Shown: positions 15,118 through 30,663 of the stretch, piece after piece
How the letters are laid out: the number at the start of each line of letters is the position of its first letter
Position numbering within the stretch: position 1 is the first letter of the stretch
Assembly: GCF_009268105.1 (NCBI RefSeq)
Contig: NZ_VWXM01000006.1
Span: 1 to 32,250 of the forward strand
Direction of reading: 5' to 3'
DNA: 32,250 bases
Origin: Candidatus Phytoplasma sacchari
GTDB taxonomy: Bacteria; Bacillota_I; Bacilli_A; Acholeplasmatales; Acholeplasmataceae
Made by a program: the position numbers and the translations under genes
Notes under the pieces: generated by a model
The model's database searches: none
Seen by the model: the letters and a program-made list of their open reading frames with translations, nothing else
Told to the model about the DNA's origin: nothing

Positions 15118-16494
15118 CTAATAAACTTCTTTATTCAACTCTACTTCATAAAATAACAAACAATTAGAATCAAAATTAAAAGTTTTTGTACTTGTTGCTC
15201 CATTTCTGTTTTTAGCAATAATTAATTCTGTATAACCTTTTATATCATTATTAATTTCATTTTCTTTATTTTTAAATTTATTATAATAACTTTTTCTATA
15301 TAAAAACATTACAATATCAGCATCTTGTTCAATACTACCAGAATCTCTTAAATCAGATAAAATAGGTCTTTTATCTTCTCTTTTTTCCACTTCTCTTGAT
15401 AATTGAGATAAAGCAATCACAGGAATTTTTAATTCTCTAGCCATTTGTTTTAAACTTTTGGAAATATCGGATACTTCTTCTTGTCTATTCCAAAAATGAT
15501 TATTAGATTTACTAGGTTTTTTTATTAATTGTAAATAATCAATAATAACTATATCTAATTTATTTTGATTTTTAAGTTGTCTGCATTGTGATACTATATC
15601 CAAAATATTAACTGTGGTAGTATCATCAAAATAAATATTCAAATTTTCCAACTGATAAATAGAAGCATTAAGTATATTTATCTGTTTTTCGCTCAAAATA
15701 CCTAATTGAATTTGTTTATGAGGTATTTCACTTATAGAACTTAAAATTCTAGTTCCTAATTGTTCATTAGACATCTCTAAACTGAAAATAGCTACAGAAG
15801 CTTTGGATTTTTTATTTTTTTGAGCTATATTAACAGCTATATTCATCATAAAGCTACTTTTACCCATAGAAGGGCGAGCTGCTAAAATAATTAATTCTTC
15901 AGGTTTAAAACCTAAAGTTATCTCATCTAAATTTTCATAACCACTACTTAAACCAATAATATTATGTTCTCGTCTTATATTAATTGTTTTTTCTTTTATT
16001 TCATGTAATAAAGAATTAATTCTTATAAAATTGCTATTTTTTTTTCTTTGAGAAATTTTAAAAATTTTTTCTTCAGCAAAATTTAAAAAACTCTGTGAAT
16101 CTATATCACTGTTGTTAACTCCATCATAAACAATAGTAGAAGCAGCATTAATAATTTCTCTTTTAAGAGAAGCTTCAAGTAAAAAATCAATATAATTATC
16201 TAAATGATAAATTGAAGGAAATAAACTACCTAATTTAATTAAATAATCTTTACCACCTTCGATATTTTGTTTTTTTTCCTCAAGAAAAATATAAACGGAA
16301 TAATAATCAATTTCCTTTCTTTGATAATAAAGTTCTTTCATAACAGAATAAATACGTTGATGATCTATATTGAAAAAATCATCAACTTCTAAACGATTAA
16401 TAATATTAATTATTTGTTTAGGGTCTAAAAAAATAATACCCAAAACAGATTGTTCTGCATCTAAATAATAAGGTAACTTAAAATTTTTATTCAC
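15118..16494 (-). CDS. dnaB: Replicative DNA helicase DnaB (DnaC of Bacillus)
   Basis: Hexameric helicase that unwinds the fork. The N-terminal domain (about 1-100) opens with LPYYLDAEQSVLGI. The RecA-like domain carries Walker A ARPSMGKSS (206-214), SLEMS (238-242), the Walker B strand DIVIIDYLQL and the DLRDSGSIEQDADIV segment. Length (458) is normal and no intein is present. The start is GTG at 16494, eight bases inside the end of the GdpP-L9 gene (the shared bases are GTGAATAA), so translation is probably coupled. The gdpP-rplI-dnaB order is conserved in Firmicutes. Confidence 0.97.
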   Translation of the reverse strand: MNKNFKLPYYLDAEQSVLGIIFLDPKQIINIINRLEVDDFFNIDHQRIYSVMKELYYQRKEIDYYSVYIFLEEKKQNIEGGKDYLIKLGSLFPSIYHLDNYIDFLLEASLKREIINAASTIVYDGVNNSDIDSQSFLNFAEEKIFKISQRKKNSNFIRINSLLHEIKEKTINIRREHNIIGLSSGYENLDEITLGFKPEELIILAARPSMGKSSFMMNIAVNIAQKNKKSKASVAIFSLEMSNEQLGTRILSSISEIPHKQIQLGILSEKQINILNASIYQLENLNIYFDDTTTVNILDIVSQCRQLKNQNKLDIVIIDYLQLIKKPSKSNNHFWNRQEEVSDISKSLKQMARELKIPVIALSQLSREVEKREDKRPILSDLRDSGSIEQDADIVMFLYRKSYYNKFKNKENEINNDIKGYTELIIAKNRNGATSTKTFNFDSNCLLFYEVELNKEVY

Positions 16495-19030
16495 TTTTTT
16501 TATCCACTTTATCTTTTTTATTATCTTCTTCTAAAACATTAATATAAAAAAAAGCAATTATATCTTTATCTAAAATAACATTAACCTTATACTTTTCATT
16601 TACAGAATGAATTTCTCCCCTATCTAAAGAAATCTTTTTATTATCAATTAAAATTTTATATTTTTTATAAAAAATTTCAGTAATTTGATTTAGAGTTATT
16701 TTACCATAAAATTTACCTTGAGGTCCTACTTTTACTTTTATTTCTATTTCTTTGTTATCTATATCTTTTTTCATTTTATTTAATAAAAGAATATGTTTTG
16801 TTTTTTCTTCATCTTCCTTCTTTTTTCTATCTTGTAATTCTTTTATAGTTAAATTATTAGCTATAATAGCTTTTCCTTCTTTAATTAAAAAATTACCATA
16901 ACCCATATTTACTTCGACAATATCATTTTTCTTACCTTTATTTTTAATATCCTCTAATAAAATAATTTTCATATTTTTCCAATTTCCTTTACATTCAGAA
17001 AAAATTATATTTTTTAATTTTATAACAACTTCTTCAATATCATCGCAATATATTTGTGTAGCAGCACTATTTATATGCCCTCCACCACCCATTTGTTCCA
17101 TAATAATTTGTACATTATAATCATTGTAAGAACGAGCGCTTATTCCTACTAAATTTTCATTTAATTTACAAATAGTAAACGCTGCATCAATGTTTTTAAT
17201 ATTCAAAAGATTTTCAGATACAGTAGATAAAAAAGATCTACTTTTATATATTTTATTACTTTTAACAATTGCATATTTTTTCATATAAATTTCTACTTTA
17301 GAAATTAACTCATTAATTTCTAATATTTTTTCAAATGATTGCCTTAACCAAAATTTAACTTTAGAACCATCAGCACCTTTAGCAATTAATTGTGATGCAG
17401 CTTCCAAAGTTCTAGCACTAGTGCGATAAATAAAATAGTTAGTATCAATAATCATACCCCCATACATGATGCTTGCCTCTAAAGGAGTAATATCTATTTT
17501 TTGATTAAAAAAATATGTCAATTCTATTAACATTTCTGAAGTAGAAGAGGATGAAGAATCGATATAAGAAAATAGTGTGTTTTTAATAACTTCTTCTGTT
17601 GAACGATGATGATCAATAATAATAATATTAGAAGTTAAATTTAATAAAGAAGGACTATGAATAATATTCTTACTTTGAGTATCAAGAATTATTAATAAAG
17701 AATTTTCATCAATCATTTTTTCTGCTTTTTGAGTAGTAATAATGTTTCTTGAAATATCTTTATCTTCTCTAACTATTTCATTATAAATAAATTCAAAGTT
17801 TTTTTCTATTTTTTCTTTATCTAAAATTAAATAATGATTATGATTACTACTAATAGATAAAGCAATTTTATAAAAAGCAATCATAGAACCAAAAGAATCT
17901 AAGTCAGGAAAAATATGTCCCATAATAAAACAATTACCTTTATTTTTTAAAAAATCTTTTATAATTTCCGCATTAACTCTAACTGAAACTTTTGAATCTT
18001 CGCTTAAAGATATTTGTGTAGCACCAAAATACTTGATTTTTTGATTTTCTATATCTAAAACCACTTGATCTCCTCCTCTTTTTTTAGCAAGTTCAATAGC
18101 GTTTTGAGCATAAGAAGCTAATTTATTATAACTTGAGTTATAACAAGCAACCCCCATAGAAAGAGTTATTCTTAAATTATATCTATTAGAAATATTACGT
18201 ATATTCTTTAAAATATAAAATCTATCTTCTATCATTTTTTCTAATTGTTGTCTATTTAATAAAAGCAAAAATTTATCATCTGTAAATTGTTTTAAAAAAC
18301 CTTCGTATATTTCATTGAAATCATATAAAGCACTAAAATATTCAACTTTGATTTGAGATTGTTCAGCTAGATCACATTTTTTCATGGAATTTTCAAAATT
18401 ATCAAAAGAAATAAAAATTAAAGATGAAGTATTTTGATTATAAAGTTTTTTTATTTTTTCTCTTTCGGTCGTATTAAAGAGATAAAAAACATTAAATTCT
18501 TCCTTATACATACAATCAAAAATATTCGAATCTAATTTTAAAATTGTCTTTTTTTGATTATATTCTATAAGTTCAAACATCTGACTATTTAATTCTTTTA
18601 AAGATATATTTACAATATCTTGTATTTCAAAAATTTTCTTTGCATAATTATTTAACCATTGAACTTCTTTAGAAATAGAATCTATAACAACAATACCTAT
18701 TGGTAATTCATTAAAAACTTCTTCTCCTATATCGTTCACATAATAAGACAATTTAGACCATAATTCAAGTCTATTTTTTAATCTTATAATTTCAAAATGT
18801 TTATGAATGTTAGAATAAATACAAATTATTACACAAAGAATTATAATTTTTCCAAAAATACTAATAAATAAAGAAAAAATAATAGCTTTAATTTCTTCTA
18901 ATGCGCGATTTGGTTCTTGAACAATTTCTTTAATCCAACTAACGTCAAAATATATAGTATGAAGAAGAATAAAAAATAAAATTAAAAAAAATATAATATA
19001 TCTATTATTTTTTTTAAATATACCAAACAT
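16487..19030 (-). CDS. gdpP-rplI: GdpP-type cyclic-di-AMP phosphodiesterase fused to ribosomal protein L9
   Basis: One 847-residue frame joins two proteins that are separate neighbours in most Firmicutes. Residues 10-28 and 50-72 are membrane helices. A PAS-like region (about 100-200) and a degenerate GGDEF domain (about 200-330, ending KKRGGDQVVLD) follow. The DHH domain has GHIFPDLDS (371-379), Asp450, DHH (473-475) and Asp529. DHHA1 ends in GGGGH (648-652). These match GdpP, which hydrolyses c-di-AMP. Residues 687-847 are a complete L9: MKIILLEDIKNKGKKNDIVEV, the long central helix, and a C-terminal domain with KVGPQGKFYGKIT. Met687 (16970-16972) has AAAGGA and GGA just upstream, so free L9 might be made by internal initiation. 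I recall similar fusion names in other Mollicute annotations, so it may not be unique. Confidence 0.93.
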   Translation of the reverse strand: MFGIFKKNNRYIIFFLILFFILLHTIYFDVSWIKEIVQEPNRALEEIKAIIFSLFISIFGKIIILCVIICIYSNIHKHFEIIRLKNRLELWSKLSYYVNDIGEEVFNELPIGIVVIDSISKEVQWLNNYAKKIFEIQDIVNISLKELNSQMFELIEYNQKKTILKLDSNIFDCMYKEEFNVFYLFNTTEREKIKKLYNQNTSSLIFISFDNFENSMKKCDLAEQSQIKVEYFSALYDFNEIYEGFLKQFTDDKFLLLLNRQQLEKMIEDRFYILKNIRNISNRYNLRITLSMGVACYNSSYNKLASYAQNAIELAKKRGGDQVVLDIENQKIKYFGATQISLSEDSKVSVRVNAEIIKDFLKNKGNCFIMGHIFPDLDSFGSMIAFYKIALSISSNHNHYLILDKEKIEKNFEFIYNEIVREDKDISRNIITTQKAEKMIDENSLLIILDTQSKNIIHSPSLLNLTSNIIIIDHHRSTEEVIKNTLFSYIDSSSSSTSEMLIELTYFFNQKIDITPLEASIMYGGMIIDTNYFIYRTSARTLEAASQLIAKGADGSKVKFWLRQSFEKILEINELISKVEIYMKKYAIVKSNKIYKSRSFLSTVSENLLNIKNIDAAFTICKLNENLVGISARSYNDYNVQIIMEQMGGGGHINSAATQIYCDDIEEVVIKLKNIIFSECKGNWKNMKIILLEDIKNKGKKNDIVEVNMGYGNFLIKEGKAIIANNLTIKELQDRKKKEDEEKTKHILLLNKMKKDIDNKEIEIKVKVGPQGKFYGKITLNQITEIFYKKYKILIDNKKISLDRGEIHSVNEKYKVNVILDKDIIAFFYINVLEEDNKKDKVDKKSE
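16970..16986 (-). promoter_or_regulatory. Possible internal ribosome-binding site and start for free L9
   Basis: On the minus strand, AAAGGAAATTGGAAAAAT leads directly into the ATG at 16972. This is exactly the first codon of canonical L9 (MKIILLEDI). Two purine blocks lie 12 and 5 bases upstream of that ATG. It is an inference from position only, because A/G-rich runs are common in this genome. Confidence 0.4.
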
Positions 19031-24857: not shown

Positions 24858-26267
24858 TTAATCTCTTTGATTATTTATTTTTTTTAAAATAATTTCTAAT
24901 GATTTTTTTAAATCGTTATTAGTTTTTATTTTTTTTTCTATTTTTTTAAAAGCTTTTAAAATAGAAGAATATTTTCTATCCAAAAATATACTAATTTTTT
25001 GAAAAGATATACCTTTAAAACTTTTCATTATATAAATAGTAATATGTCTAGGTAAAGTGTATTTATTATGTCTTTTTTTATTTTTCAAATCTTCTTTATT
25101 AATATTATAAAATTCACTTATTATTTCTTTTAATTTTTCTAAAAAAGAATTATTTTTATAAAATAATTTTTTGTTTTTTAACAATGGTTCTAAAGATTCT
25201 ATAGTGTTTTGTAAATTAACTTTTAAATCATAAATTTGAGAATAATTTAAAATTCTTAATAAAGCTCCTTCCATTTCTCTTATATTATCACAAAATTGAT
25301 TAGAAATAAATTCTAAAACATCTTTTCCAAATTTATTTTTATAACCTTGAAATTCAAAAATTTTTTTTTTTAAAATATCTAAACAATGCTTAGAGTCAGG
25401 TTTTTGAATATCTACAATTAATCCTGCTTTAAAACGATTAGTTAATCTTTCCATAATATTATTTAATTCTGTAATAGGTTTATCACTTGTTATAACTATC
25501 TGTTTTTTATTTAAATTTAAATAATCAAAAATTTTGAAAAATTCTATCTGAGTTCTTTTAGCTTCAGACATCATCTGAATATCATCAACTAAAAGAACAT
25601 CTATATTTCTATATTTTTGTTTAAAAAAATCCATTCTTTCTCTTCTTAATTGGTTTGTAAAATCTTCTACAAATTCATCTGCTTTTATATACAAAATCTT
25701 TTTATAAGTTTTTTTTTTAAGAATAAAATTTCCTATAGAATGAAGAAGATGAGTTTTTCCTAAACCTACAGAACCAAAAATATACAAAGGATTTATACAA
25801 ATATTTTCGGACTCAGCAATTTTTTTAGCCATTTTAAAAGCAAAAAAATTACTTTCTCCCTTAACAAAATTATCAAAATTATAATTAGAGTTCAAATTAC
25901 AATAATCCAAAATATTAAAATTATTTATTTTTTCATTTTGTTTGAAAAAATCTAAATGATTTTCTTTTTTATCTTTTTTTATAATATCATCATAAGTAAT
26001 AAATCTAAAAGAAATTTTTTCGCTAGTATATTTTCTAGATATTTCTTCTATTTTATCTAGATAGATATTGTACATTTTTCTTTTAATGAACTCATTCTCA
26101 ACTAAAATAAAAAAGATACCTTTTTCTATTTTATATGGTTTTTCTATATTTGCAAAATTTTCTCTAAAAACTTCTTCGCTATAAATCAGAGATAAATTAT
26201 TAAAAATATTAAACCAAATTTTTTCTTCTTTAGATAAAGAATCTTTTTTTTCCATCACTAAAATCAT
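24858..26267 (-). CDS. dnaA: Chromosomal replication initiator DnaA, with an atypical recognition helix
   Basis: AAA+ ATPase that opens the origin. Domain I is at about 5-90. Domain III has FNFDNFVKGESN-like entry, Walker A GSVGLGKT (165-172), Walker B LLVDDI (225-230) and the NRFKAGLIVDIQ segment with the arginine of box VII (277-288). Domain IV keeps LPRHITIYI (405-413). The signature that is GGRDHTTV-like in most bacteria reads LDRKYSSI (429-436). The Asp, His and Thr residues known to read the DnaA box in E. coli are replaced. Start choice is uncertain: AAAAGG touches the first ATG (26267), so GTG at 26258 or ATG at 26255 (MEKKDS) may be the real start. dnaN follows after 9 bases. Confidence 0.95.
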   Translation of the reverse strand: MILVMEKKDSLSKEEKIWFNIFNNLSLIYSEEVFRENFANIEKPYKIEKGIFFILVENEFIKRKMYNIYLDKIEEISRKYTSEKISFRFITYDDIIKKDKKENHLDFFKQNEKINNFNILDYCNLNSNYNFDNFVKGESNFFAFKMAKKIAESENICINPLYIFGSVGLGKTHLLHSIGNFILKKKTYKKILYIKADEFVEDFTNQLRRERMDFFKQKYRNIDVLLVDDIQMMSEAKRTQIEFFKIFDYLNLNKKQIVITSDKPITELNNIMERLTNRFKAGLIVDIQKPDSKHCLDILKKKIFEFQGYKNKFGKDVLEFISNQFCDNIREMEGALLRILNYSQIYDLKVNLQNTIESLEPLLKNKKLFYKNNSFLEKLKEIISEFYNINKEDLKNKKRHNKYTLPRHITIYIMKSFKGISFQKISIFLDRKYSSILKAFKKIEKKIKTNNDLKKSLEIILKKINNQRD

Positions 26268-26327: not shown

Positions 26328-28799
26328 TTAAATACTACAGGACTCACAATCATCTATTTTTAATTTTTGAGTTCTAGTATAATAAAGTGTTTTTATACCT
26401 TTGTGATGAGCATATAAATAATATTTTTGTAACTCCCTTGTAGTTATATCGGAAGTAATACATAATTCAAAAGAAATTCCTTGATCTATATGTTTTTGAG
26501 CCATAGCAATAATATCTATTATTTTATATTTATCCATTTTATAAGCTGTTTCATACATAAAACCAAAATCTTCTAAAAAAGGAGAGGGAAAATAAGTTTT
26601 AGAATTACCATAAGTTCTTTCTTCAACTAACTGTCTAATAGGAGTTAAAGAGGGAGTGGCAGACATAATATAACCTATAGAACCATTTGGTGCAACAGCT
26701 AATCTGTGTGAATTATAAAGACCATATTTCATTATATTTTCTTTTAATTTAAACCAATCTTCGTCTGAAGGTATATAAATATTTTCAAATATTTTTTTAA
26801 TTTTAAGCGAAACTGGATAAATAGCTTTTTTATTTTCAAAATATTTACCATTAGAATATGAAGATTGATTAAATTTAAAAAACTTTTGGCCTGTTTGAAT
26901 AGATTTCAAATTAGAATGAAGCAAAGAATAATAATTAATAATATTAAAAAAAACATCTATCAATTCTATATCTTCTTCACTACCAAAATCTATCATTTGT
27001 TCTGCTATAAACCCATGATGACCCATTATACCAAAACCAACACTTCTATTTAATTTATTAGCCTTCGAAACAGCAGGTACATAACTAATATTGGTTTTAT
27101 CAGAAACAGAATTCATAATTTCCATAGCAGAAAATACAGTTTCTTTTATTTTTTTATTTTTAAGCATATTACCCATATGTCCAGAAGATAAGTTACAAGA
27201 AATATCCATTCCTATTTTATCTTCTTCTCTTTTATCATAAAAAGCATAATTAGAAGTTATAGTTGGTTGTAAAATTTCAGTACACAAATTAGAAAATTTA
27301 ATCTTATCAGAAGAAGTATTATTTCTATTAGCATTATCACAAAACATCAAATAAGGATATCCAGACTCACCTTGAAGATGAGAAATCAACTCTAACAAAA
27401 TTCTAGGATTAATAAATTTTTTTTCAATTTTAGGATTTTTAACTAAAGTATCATACCATTCATCCATAGAAACACTTATATCTGCAAAATTTAAACCATA
27501 TTCTAAAAAAACATTATGAGGGAAAAATAAAGCCATTTCTTCATTATTTTTAGCTAATTCAATCATTTTATCAGGTATAACAACACCTAAAGATAAAGTT
27601 TTTAGTCTAAAATCTTCATCAGCATTTAATTTTTTAGAATTTAAAAAATCTTCGATATCAGCATGAAAAACATTTAAATAAACTGCACCTGCTCCTAATC
27701 TTTGACCCATTTGGTCAGCATAACGAAAAGCATAATCTAAAAGCTTAGAAACTCCTAAAACTCCTTTTGAAACATTTAAAATTTCCTTTATTTTTTCACC
27801 CTTAGCTCTTAAATTAGACAAATTTATAGAAACTCCGCCACCAATTTTAGAAAGTTGCATAGAAAATTCTACGATACGAGAAATATCATTCAAAGAATCA
27901 CCAGCTTCTAACAAAAAACAAGATACAAATTCTCCCCTTTTTTTCAAACCTGTATTTAACAAAGTAGGAGTAGCTGGAGTAAAATTCTGTTCTATTAAGT
28001 TTTCTATAATTTTTTTTGCTAATTCAAAATTTCCAGAAGAATGATATAAAGCATTAACAGCTAAACGATCTTCATAAGTTTCTAAATATTGTTTTTTATC
28101 TCTTGATTTTAATGAATAATCATTATAAAATTTAAAAGCACCAATAAAAGAAGGGAATACAAATTTTTTATCATAAGCTATTTGATAAATTTTTTTTATT
28201 TGATCAAAATCATATTTTTCTAAAAAATCTTTTTCATAATATTCATTTGTTATCAAAAAATTTATTTTTTCTTGTAAAGTATTAAATTTTTTTAACTTAG
28301 GATTAATTTCTTCTTTTAAATAAGAATTTAAAGCTTCTTTATCTTTTTTTAGATCCTTAATGTTACCATTTTCATCTATTATTTGATTATTCAAAAAAAT
28401 CCAAGAAGGAATTTTTTTATATTTTCCTTTTTTTTCCATTTTATATTCTTCTAACCATTTTTTTAATTTTTCAACATCTTCTGATAAACCACTGCCTTCA
28501 AATTTTAATACTAAAGGAATATTAAATTTTTTAGAAATTAATTCTCCTGCTAAAGCATAATTTTTTCCAAAATTTCTATTTCCTGAAACGGCTACACCTA
28601 TTACATTTAAAGAATATTTTTCAAGAAAAAATTCAGCACTTTTAGTCATTTCTCCAAAATTAACAGTTTTAGTTATTAAAAAAATATCTTCGTTATTACT
28701 ATGATTTTCAAAATTTTCTATTTTTTCTATTGAATATCCTAGTTTATTCGCAAAATCAAAAACATTCCCATTTTCATAACCATCATAAACTATTTTCAT
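26328..28799 (-). CDS. nrdIE: NrdI-NrdE fusion: flavodoxin-like activator joined to class Ib ribonucleotide reductase alpha subunit
   Basis: Residues 1-118 are an NrdI flavoprotein: MKIVYDGYENGNV, TKTVNFGEMT (43-52), GVAVSGNRNFGKNYALAGELI (68-88) and FEGSGLSEDVEKLKKWLEE. Residues about 128-823 are a full-length NrdE: Cys294 (FVSCFLL) and Cys535 (ISCNLSS) as the redox pair, NLCTE (504-508) with the radical-relay Cys506, Tyr806-Tyr807 (YYTRTQ), and the C-terminal shuttle CESC (818-821). NrdE reduces NDPs to dNDPs; NrdI normally supplies the oxidant to activate NrdF. The two are usually separate genes. No nrdF is in the window. TTAGGGTG precedes the ATG. It is transcribed toward dnaA, 60 bases away. 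The join is continuous in frame, so a simple sequencing error is unlikely. Confidence 0.95.
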   Translation of the reverse strand: MKIVYDGYENGNVFDFANKLGYSIEKIENFENHSNNEDIFLITKTVNFGEMTKSAEFFLEKYSLNVIGVAVSGNRNFGKNYALAGELISKKFNIPLVLKFEGSGLSEDVEKLKKWLEEYKMEKKGKYKKIPSWIFLNNQIIDENGNIKDLKKDKEALNSYLKEEINPKLKKFNTLQEKINFLITNEYYEKDFLEKYDFDQIKKIYQIAYDKKFVFPSFIGAFKFYNDYSLKSRDKKQYLETYEDRLAVNALYHSSGNFELAKKIIENLIEQNFTPATPTLLNTGLKKRGEFVSCFLLEAGDSLNDISRIVEFSMQLSKIGGGVSINLSNLRAKGEKIKEILNVSKGVLGVSKLLDYAFRYADQMGQRLGAGAVYLNVFHADIEDFLNSKKLNADEDFRLKTLSLGVVIPDKMIELAKNNEEMALFFPHNVFLEYGLNFADISVSMDEWYDTLVKNPKIEKKFINPRILLELISHLQGESGYPYLMFCDNANRNNTSSDKIKFSNLCTEILQPTITSNYAFYDKREEDKIGMDISCNLSSGHMGNMLKNKKIKETVFSAMEIMNSVSDKTNISYVPAVSKANKLNRSVGFGIMGHHGFIAEQMIDFGSEEDIELIDVFFNIINYYSLLHSNLKSIQTGQKFFKFNQSSYSNGKYFENKKAIYPVSLKIKKIFENIYIPSDEDWFKLKENIMKYGLYNSHRLAVAPNGSIGYIMSATPSLTPIRQLVEERTYGNSKTYFPSPFLEDFGFMYETAYKMDKYKIIDIIAMAQKHIDQGISFELCITSDITTRELQKYYLYAHHKGIKTLYYTRTQKLKIDDCESCSI

Positions 28800-29105
28800 T
28801 TTAATTCACCCTAATTTTTTTAAAATTAATAATATAAAAAATTACATTTATTTTGTATTTTTTTATAATAATATTTTTTTTAGCAAAATTCCATATTATA
28901 TTTTTTTAACTTTATATTAAACCATGTGAATATTTTAACAAATTTAAAATAAATTTTAAATTCATAATAAAAAAATAATTAAAGAAAAAAATAAAAATTA
29001 ACAATATTATAATATCATAATTATTTTTTTAAAAATAAACATAAGAAAAACAAAAATTTTTATCCAAAAAATATTATTTTGTTAATTTTATTTTAAAATA
29101 TTTAT

Positions 29106-29189
29106 AAAAAATGTGACTAACTCACTAAAAAATGTGACTAACTCACTAAAAAATGTGACTAACTCACTAAAAAATGTGACTAACTCACT
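29106..29189. repeat. Four perfect tandem copies of a 21-bp repeat
   Basis: Units at 29106-29126, 29127-29147, 29148-29168 and 29169-29189 are identical. Each is A6 followed by TGTGACTAACTCACT. The non-A part has a short dyad, GTGA-N5-TCAC, and its minus strand contains TTAGTCACA, one mismatch from the loose DnaA-box consensus TTATNCACA. There are no spacers, so it is not a CRISPR. The GC content is well above the surrounding DNA. Confidence 0.95.
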
Positions 29190-29261
29190 AAAAAAAAAAT
29201 AATTTTTTTTATCTTTTTAATGAATTTTAGAAAAAATTAGAAAAAGTTAGTCACATTTTTT
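29169..29261 (-). terminator. Long hairpin between the fourth repeat and an inverted copy, downstream of pgi
   Basis: GTTAGTCACATTTTTT at 29246-29261 is the exact reverse complement of the first 16 bases of each 21-bp unit. With the nearest unit (29169-29184) it makes a perfect 16-bp stem, and on the minus strand the 3' arm ends in a T-run, as in an intrinsic terminator for pgi. The 61-base loop is long. The same inverted copy could pair with any of the four units. Confidence 0.5.
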
Positions 29262-29292
29262 AAAATTACTAATAATAATAATTAATAACTAA

Positions 29293-29309
29293 ATATATAT
29301 ATATATATA
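29293..29309. repeat. (AT)n microsatellite
   Basis: An uninterrupted run of alternating A and T, 17 bases, lies between the repeat array and the pgi stop codon. It is prone to slippage and easily melted. Confidence 0.85.
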
Positions 29310-29373
29310 ATAATATTTTAAAATTACTTAAAATATAAAAAATAAAAAAATAATTATTTATTATTTTATATTT

Positions 29374-30663
29374 TTAAAAACATTTTAAAAAACTTGACAA
29401 TTTTGACTTATATAATTCTACTCCTGGTTGATTAAATGGATTAACATTGAAAAGAAAAGAAGATATAATAGAAACTCTTTGAAAGAAAAAAACTAAATAA
29501 CCAAAATTATATTCATCTAAATTTTTAAAAATTATTTCTAAATTAGGAACATTTCCTTCTATATGAGCCAATTTAGTAGATTTTAAAATTTTATTATTAA
29601 TATAAGAAAAATATTTACCAGATAGATAATTGAGTTTATCTAGATTTTTTTCATCTTTAGTTATAAAAAAATCTTTTTTGTTAGAATTAATATTTAAAAT
29701 TGTTTCGAATAAAATTTTAGAACCATTTTGTATAAATTGTCCTAGAGAATGAAGATCTGTAGAATTATGTGAAGCGCTTATAAAAATACCCTTATTGTCT
29801 TTACCTTCTGACTCCATAAAAAGCTGTTTTAACCATTCTGTAAAATAAAAAAGTTGAGGTTCATAATTAACAAATAATTCTATTTTTTTGTCTAATTTAT
29901 TAAATAAAATATATCTAATAGCAGCATACTTATAAGCCATATTTTTGTCTAAATTTTCTGAAGTAGTATCTTCTAGTGCTTTTTTAGCTCCTTCTATCAT
30001 ACTCTCTACTTTTAAACCTGCAAAAATAAAAGGTAAGAAACCAACATTAGTTAATACGCTGAATCTACCAATTATTTCATCAGGGATAAAAAATTTTTCA
30101 TAATTTTCTAAACTAGCAATATTAAATAAAAGATTTTTATTGTTACTTGTTGTAACAAAAACTCTTTTTTTAGATTCTTTTGATCCATATTTTTTTTCAA
30201 TTTCTTTTTTAAGAAATCTAAAAGATAAAATTGGTTCTAAAGTTGTTCCTGATTTTGAAATTACGTTTATTGCCCAATTTTTGTCTTTTAAATATTTAAT
30301 TAAAAATTTTAAATAAGTGCCAGAAACTTGATGTCCAGCAAAAATAATTTCAGTTTTGTTTTTTTTAAAAAATGGTTTTTTAACAAATTCTATACCTGCT
30401 TTAGTTCCTAAAAATGATCCTCCTATACCTATAACAACTAGAATATCCAATCCTTTTAATTTTTCTTTTATTTTTTTTATTTTATTTATTTCTTCGAAAT
30501 CAAAATTAATTGGTAAGTTTATAGATCCTAGGTATTTTTTTTTTATCTCCTCATTTTTATCTATTTTACTATTAATATCTTTTAATTTATCCAAAATTTC
30601 ATTTTTTTCATTTTTCCAATTAAAAAAATTTTTTATTCCATCTATTTTTAATTTAACTTTCAT
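29374..30663 (-). CDS. pgi: Glucose-6-phosphate isomerase
   Basis: Glycolytic enzyme converting glucose 6-phosphate to fructose 6-phosphate. The 429 residues are the short Firmicute form. Landmarks are IGIGGSFLGTKA (78-89), SKSGTT (136-141) for phosphate binding, ESEGKDN (284-290) with the catalytic Glu, His305 and the signature NQPGVELYKSKL (411-422) with Lys420. All active-site residues look intact. It starts 45 bases after the MATE gene on the same strand. The 21-bp repeat array lies beyond its 3' end. Confidence 0.97.
   Translation of the reverse strand: MKVKLKIDGIKNFFNWKNEKNEILDKLKDINSKIDKNEEIKKKYLGSINLPINFDFEEINKIKKIKEKLKGLDILVVIGIGGSFLGTKAGIEFVKKPFFKKNKTEIIFAGHQVSGTYLKFLIKYLKDKNWAINVISKSGTTLEPILSFRFLKKEIEKKYGSKESKKRVFVTTSNNKNLLFNIASLENYEKFFIPDEIIGRFSVLTNVGFLPFIFAGLKVESMIEGAKKALEDTTSENLDKNMAYKYAAIRYILFNKLDKKIELFVNYEPQLFYFTEWLKQLFMESEGKDNKGIFISASHNSTDLHSLGQFIQNGSKILFETILNINSNKKDFFITKDEKNLDKLNYLSGKYFSYINNKILKSTKLAHIEGNVPNLEIIFKNLDEYNFGYLVFFFQRVSIISSFLFNVNPFNQPGVELYKSKLSSFLKCF

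Follow-up and report, generated by a model that had tools for sequence, protein, structure and literature searches.

Phytoplasmas are plant pathogens that insects transmit and that resist cell-free culture. In their class Ib ribonucleotide reductase (RNR) the activase NrdI is joined permanently, by way of a flexible linker, to the N-terminal end of NrdE, the large subunit, and on balance this arrangement is best read as a working tethered activase in an enzyme that is probably of the manganese type. NrdI makes superoxide for manganese class Ib enzymes and is encoded universally in class Ib genomes (PMC8463856). How the three proteins NrdI, NrdE, and NrdF are shared among themselves in cells matters, as class Ib enzymes need NrdI for the manganese radical. 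A natural fusion found throughout the sampled genus offers a single protein with which one could examine whether the enzyme is activated and turns over within one complex.

The fused nrdI-nrdE gene (here called nrdIE) occupies positions 26328..28799 of the window, that is, of the whole analysed stretch of 32,250 nucleotides from Candidatus Phytoplasma sacchari. It lies on the minus strand, starts with an ATG at 28799, and has a stop codon ending at 26328, which gives 823 codons and the stop; the plus strand across the same interval is full of stops. The preliminary description had proposed a NrdI-NrdE fusion in one continuous frame at these coordinates, and both the fusion and its extent were borne out by Pfam and NCBIfam domain searches; the coordinates are right as well and only the strand, absent from that description, has to be supplied. 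Along the protein the NrdI domain of flavodoxin fold (residues 1–118; 28446..28799, minus strand) is followed by a linker (residues 119–132; 28404..28445, minus strand) and by the class Ib large subunit NrdE (residues 133–823; 26331..28403, minus strand; TIGR04170), which begins with a partial ATP-cone (RNR_N; residues 133–213; 28161..28403, minus strand) where T45 and F47 of the I-site loop of B. subtilis are not kept.

In the Pfam search of the fused protein Flavodoxin_NdrI (PF07972) matched residues 10–113 with 72.9 bits against a cut-off of 27, followed by RNR_N at 133–213, Ribonuc_red_lgN at 215–287, and Ribonuc_red_lgC at 292–808 (433.5 bits). The NCBIfam search assigned it to class Ib NrdE (TIGR04170, 876.6 bits, cut-off 750) and gave 75.4 bits for the NrdI profile TIGR00333, just 0.75 above the cut-off of 74.65; a structural match agrees with the flavodoxin fold. 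The catalytic NrdE motifs are present in 29/29 fused proteins with one exception: P0009, a sequence recorded as partial, has no C-terminal CxxC. The closest named proteins belong to ‘Candidatus Phytoplasma oryzae’ and ‘Ca. P. cynodontis’, which puts the window among phytoplasmas near these two. No second NrdI was found in the genome of the window (505 kb, 29 contigs, completeness 90%), where NrdI is present only as the fused domain.

Among the 29 sampled Phytoplasma genomes, the window's own included, 27 carry a NrdI domain, which in 25 of them is part of one open frame of 823–878 amino acids; in G025 the contig stops within the fused gene. In G028 a frameshift lies inside the NrdI part, and both pieces match P0025, a cluster of 35 sequences with the frame intact, at 99–100% identity. 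Both genomes without NrdI (G002 and G022) are also without NrdE and are incomplete (85% and 75%, respectively). NrdE was found in 21 of the 23 genus genomes checked, every time in a fused frame of 825–878 amino acids, and no separate nrdI was found in the 25 genomes with the intact fused frame, each of which gave a single NrdI match. A stop codon or frameshift missed in assembly near the junction, which the preliminary description had named as one way in which the fusion could fall, is therefore rejected with practically nothing left in its favour, because 25 Phytoplasma genomes read through the junction without a stop, with differing linker sequences, and the same frame recurs in 29 protein clusters, two of which have 35 and 60 members; nothing in the window's genome speaks for such an error, and the G028 frameshift sits inside the domain and in another genome.

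In genome samples of the class and of the phylum, which overlap, NrdI matches were obtained in 96/395 genomes (8 phytoplasmas) and 142/392 genomes (7 phytoplasmas), respectively. No fusion was found there outside the genus: the above-cut-off NrdI among the matches listed sit in frames of 117–197 amino acids, a range that does not refer to the sub-cut-off matches in longer frames of G083 (270) and G102 (742). A search of 5.8 billion proteins, restricted to fusion-sized ones and reaching only relatives that share short words with the query, returned for query residues 1–160 a set of 29 proteins with both domains, the window's own included, and two more hits that are NrdE without NrdI. The organism, where shown, is a phytoplasma or a plant-disease name cut short (P0006 and P0012), and P0005, P0011, P0013, and P0024 show none; with the NrdI of a relative as query three two-domain proteins were returned, all from phytoplasmas. 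The rarity supposed in the preliminary description is borne out by these samples, while its reservation that the fusion could be widespread or already described in Mollicutes holds for Phytoplasma, where it is indeed widespread, and fails for the other Mollicutes sampled and for the literature searched. Among the phage records listed (the best 15 of at least 5000 and the best 15 of 408) a single hit had the look of a fusion, and this one, in Listeria phage LIS04, proved to be a pair of genes that overlap; phage Goe12 has two genes as well. In LIS04 the nrdI-like frame that overlaps nrdE (L127, 1501–1887) is unannotated.

No description of a NrdI-NrdE fusion was found in the open-licence literature searched, a body of text that excludes most subscription journals. 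In the available passages of phytoplasma genome papers the gene is given as nrdE or nrdA (PMC10176825, PMC3633829, PMC3743221, PMC3322544); the sequence databases mark both domains, and one record (P0014) carries the name NrdI.

In close relatives of the genus the genes mostly form an nrdI-nrdE-nrdF operon. Of 11 such stretches read in relatives, 9 have nrdI and nrdE as immediate neighbours in this order, with a gap of 0–13 bases in six, a gap of 140–149 bases in two, and an overlap of 8 bases in G277; other reading frames stand between the two genes in G032 and G035. The nrdF gene comes after nrdE in 10 of these stretches, the remaining one being too short to show it. In a tree of 124 NrdI sequences all 29 fused domains group in a single clade (support 0.999), and in the NrdE tree rooted on other relatives the fusions together with G277 form a clade with support of 0.998, that of the fusions alone being weak (0.559). 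These trees are most simply explained by a single fusion event in the ancestor of the genus. An nrdI-nrdE-nrdF operon whose genes touched or overlapped would have been its starting point, and F47 and R117, which belong to the N-terminal region of NrdE where NrdI is attached, had probably been lost by then.

The gene that starts 60 bases downstream of nrdIE in the window (24858..26267, minus strand) is presumably dnaA, to judge by its protein sequence, and it was matched between genomes by tblastn only. Neighbours could be read in 26 genomes, G025 being left out: in 13 of them (the window and L077, L101, L102, L107–L109, L113, L115–L117, L119, and L121) dnaA lies no more than 0.7 kb downstream of the fused gene, in 3 more it comes next across the ends of one contig, in 7 the fused gene stands before nrdF, and in 3 neither dnaA nor nrdF is found within about 3 kb. 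The adjacency to dnaA links dNTP supply with replication-initiation genes. A scan of 28500–29400 gave 22 promoter-like sites against 10.9 expected, on which nothing is built here, and no terminator-like site. Elsewhere in the window a long minus-strand frame at 16487–19030 also seems to join two protein parts, which we take, from their protein sequence, to be a GdpP-type phosphodiesterase and a C-terminal ribosomal protein L9-like part.

The NrdF partner is encoded in the genome of the window by a separate gene on another contig, adjoining a gene that we take from its sequence to be recA-like. All six metal ligands, namely, two His and four carboxylates, together with the radical Tyr, are present in 26/26 phytoplasma NrdF, the window's genome included. 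The metal-free class Ie RNR of Mesoplasma florum, Streptococcus pyogenes, and Aerococcus urinae, in which three metal ligands are replaced, resembles the phytoplasma enzyme in its use of NrdI and in its occurrence in another Mollicute; it differs in that phytoplasma NrdF keeps all ligands, the three carboxylates that class Ie replaces being intact in every one of the 26 sequences. By these residues NrdF is a metal-dependent class Ib protein and not a class Ie one, which settles the choice between the two patterns left by the preliminary description. The motif MENAVH first looked ligand-deficient, and class Ie was dropped as MENAVH also occurs in the sequence of the B. subtilis structure. Of the NrdF superoxide channel Tyr166, Ser196, Lys263, and Asn267 are kept in the 26 phytoplasma sequences and Ser162 is replaced by Thr (Bacillus cereus numbering, mapped by motif).

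No NrdF match was obtained in G001 and G022 among the 29 genomes, and G002 gave only a piece at a contig end. G001 (L077; a single contig, 94% complete) has an intact fused gene and no NrdF match, which counts against a tethered activase. A relative's recA, the neighbour of nrdF elsewhere, also found no match in G001, and because this neighbour is missing too, the region may have been deleted or may fall in a gap of the assembly. On a small contig of G013 (contig 8, 1–4400; L079) several degenerate pieces of NrdF lie in either orientation, while an intact NrdF is present elsewhere in that genome; the pieces look like decaying duplicates.

The statement of the preliminary description that the NrdI domain is complete stands as far as the domain match is concerned; it is too simple, because the flavin-phosphate loop, the change of which had been missed, is altered. 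In the window this loop reads DGYENGNV (residues 6–13; 28761..28784, minus strand), with no Thr and with one residue more than in separate NrdI. The flavodoxin phosphate loop has the consensus S/T-x-T-G (PMC7084853), to which none of the 29 fused loops conforms, the motif being altered in 29/29 fused NrdI and usual in 84/84 separate relatives. The loop Thr is found in 0/29 fused against 95/95 separate NrdI, and one residue has been gained in 29/29 fused loops. Around the predicted flavin ring Gly73, Asn74, Gly78, and Glu101 are kept in 29/29 fused domains and Thr43 in 26/29, while position 77 is aromatic in 29/29, with Trp77 replaced by Tyr or Phe in 21/29. The residues that would face the ring of the flavin in NrdI and those of the superoxide channel in NrdF are, taken together, mostly intact; the use of flavin is nevertheless not assured, because the phosphate loop is changed in all 29 proteins and Trp77 is replaced in 21 of them.

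With regard to the supply of flavin, riboflavin kinase/FAD synthase domains were found in 3/23 phytoplasma genomes (G006, G007, and G015) versus 14/14 genomes from other families of the order, these two sets making up the sample. Their absence from the other 20 phytoplasma genomes, five of which are single contigs, counts against a tethered flavin activase. In the passages available, the kinase is given as lost outside groups 16SrXII and 16SrXIII (PMC11857868) and is reported in strain OY-M (PMC3322544). The loop change occurs in G006, G007, and G015 as well, and since these three genomes keep the kinase, it is not a consequence of kinase loss. Which flavin is used becomes a direct question when the changed loop is considered together with a riboflavin kinase that most lineages have lost.

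Between Trp115 and Asn137 the linker measures 19–51 residues in 28 proteins (P0009 left out), and because its length is not conserved, a fixed geometry of NrdI and NrdE is disfavoured. In the AlphaFold model of the whole fused protein, built with 28 sequences, the linker has low confidence from residue 124; with a mean pLDDT of 66, much of NrdE poor, and a VIA rmsd to NrdE of 16 Å, the model was too poor for conclusions on NrdE geometry and interdomain placement, and none were drawn. Selection was estimated by the Nei-Gojobori method in 25 genomes, where 181/300 pairs had 0.1<dS<1.2 in both parts. In nearly all pairs used the dN of the linker is above that of either domain. The median dN/dS in the 181 pairs is 0.389 for NrdI versus 0.193 for the NrdE part in these loci, and in the 13 pairs whose two parts both show dS below 0.45 the NrdI value is 0.067–0.262. 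For NrdI the ratio is above 1 in two distant pairs, for which dS cannot be relied on in DNA this rich in AT, and 0.98 in one more; these values, with a median twice that of NrdE, count against the tethered activase. The NrdI domain is thus under constraint, at roughly half the strength seen in NrdE.

For the tethered activase it is proposed that the NrdI domain would dock on NrdF, held meanwhile by NrdE, and reduce O2 to superoxide, upon which the tyrosyl radical would form on NrdF, the steps from flavin reduction to the radical being borrowed from class Ib enzymes already characterised (PMC8463856). As NrdF is bound by NrdE too, via its C-terminal tail, the tether would raise the local concentration of the activase, and NrdF could be re-activated without a separate encounter. 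It is plausible that the tether also fixes the stoichiometry of NrdI and puts the oxidant generator inside the putative holoenzyme.

The same architecture might have come about by neutral compaction of the operon, in which a lost stop or a small frameshift joined the neighbours and left a normal activase swinging freely on a tether of no advantage. Since nrdI and nrdE touch or overlap in relatives (six of the 11 stretches with 0–13 bases between the genes and one with an overlap), fusion would be an easy event in shrinking genomes, and the variable linker, disordered in the model, agrees with it; the loss of any separate nrdI from the 25 intact-frame genomes and the unfused state kept by the sampled bacteria outside the genus count against it, though not decisively. 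Neutral compaction is given a minor share of the probability. Much the same standing is given to a flavin activase with changed cofactor use, which would work with riboflavin, FAD, or loosely held host FMN and would be kept close to NrdF only by its tether to NrdE, the phosphate cradle having been given up at the genus base before most lineages lost the kinase. If this were true, the fusion would compensate for weak binding of cofactor or partner, and class Ib activation would have a hitherto unknown form.

It is rather improbable that the NrdI domain has ceased to be a flavin activase and serves as a structural or regulatory N-terminal domain, with NrdF loaded with iron and O2 in a way that needs no NrdI, although class Ib NrdF can form its radical from the di-iron form and O2 (PMC7239806), and the loss of the loop Thr with the one-residue insertion in all 29 proteins, the 20/23 genomes in which riboflavin kinase was not found, and the weaker constraint relative to NrdE point in that direction. 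Against it, most of the flavin-ring residues are invariant, which would be unexpected in a domain without flavin, and the loop change is shared by the three kinase-keeping genomes. A gene yielding two polypeptides, whether the product is cleaved or translation starts a second time within the linker, is still harder to credit and receives a very small probability. Met120 of the window sits about where an nrdE start would be, and AGGA(G) bases precede an ATG in 1/25 linkers and a GTG or TTG in 3/25; in the same scan no Shine-Dalgarno-like bases were found at the window's own linker ATG, and in-frame ATG, GTG, and TTG are all absent from 7/25 linkers, by which a conserved internal start for free NrdE is ruled out.

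The tethered activase is most similar to the class Ib RNR of B. subtilis, which provides the best matches among solved structures for NrdE (6cgl, 776 bits), NrdF (4dr0), and the NrdI domain (1rlj). It differs from the B. subtilis enzyme in that NrdI and NrdE are one protein, in the replaced residues of the I-site, and in the changed flavin-phosphate loop of NrdI. Another parallel is found in RNR subunits fused to glutaredoxin (Facklamia ignava Grx::ATP-cone::NrdB and others), where a separate helper is likewise joined to a subunit in a fusion that was shown to work (PMC6187632). That helper is, however, a reductant and is carried mostly on NrdB, with Grx::NrdE in Streptococcus pneumoniae (PMC6187632), whereas the phytoplasma helper would be the activase of radical generation and is carried on NrdE; no NrdI fusion is named in the passages of PMC6187632 covering 12 of 20 places.

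The N-terminal partial ATP-cone of B. subtilis NrdE holds the I-site, at which dAMP or dATP drives formation of an inhibited dimer with the involvement of N42, T45, F47, and R117 (PMC6572854). In the alignment to this protein F47 and R117 are replaced in 29/29 fusions and T45 in 28/29, P0009 keeping the Thr, while N42 is kept in 10/29, so that the residue set of a B. subtilis-type I-site is complete in none of the fusions. This loss of residues predicts an RNR without this form of overall-activity control by dATP. The I-site loop and R117 are kept in 11/12 NrdE of relatives. F47, R117, and T45 are replaced in G277 too, and because its genes are separate, it is suggested that the I-site was lost before the fusion. 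With overlapping nrdI and nrdE and the I-site residues lost, G277 (L070), which lies outside the genus, may represent an intermediate state.
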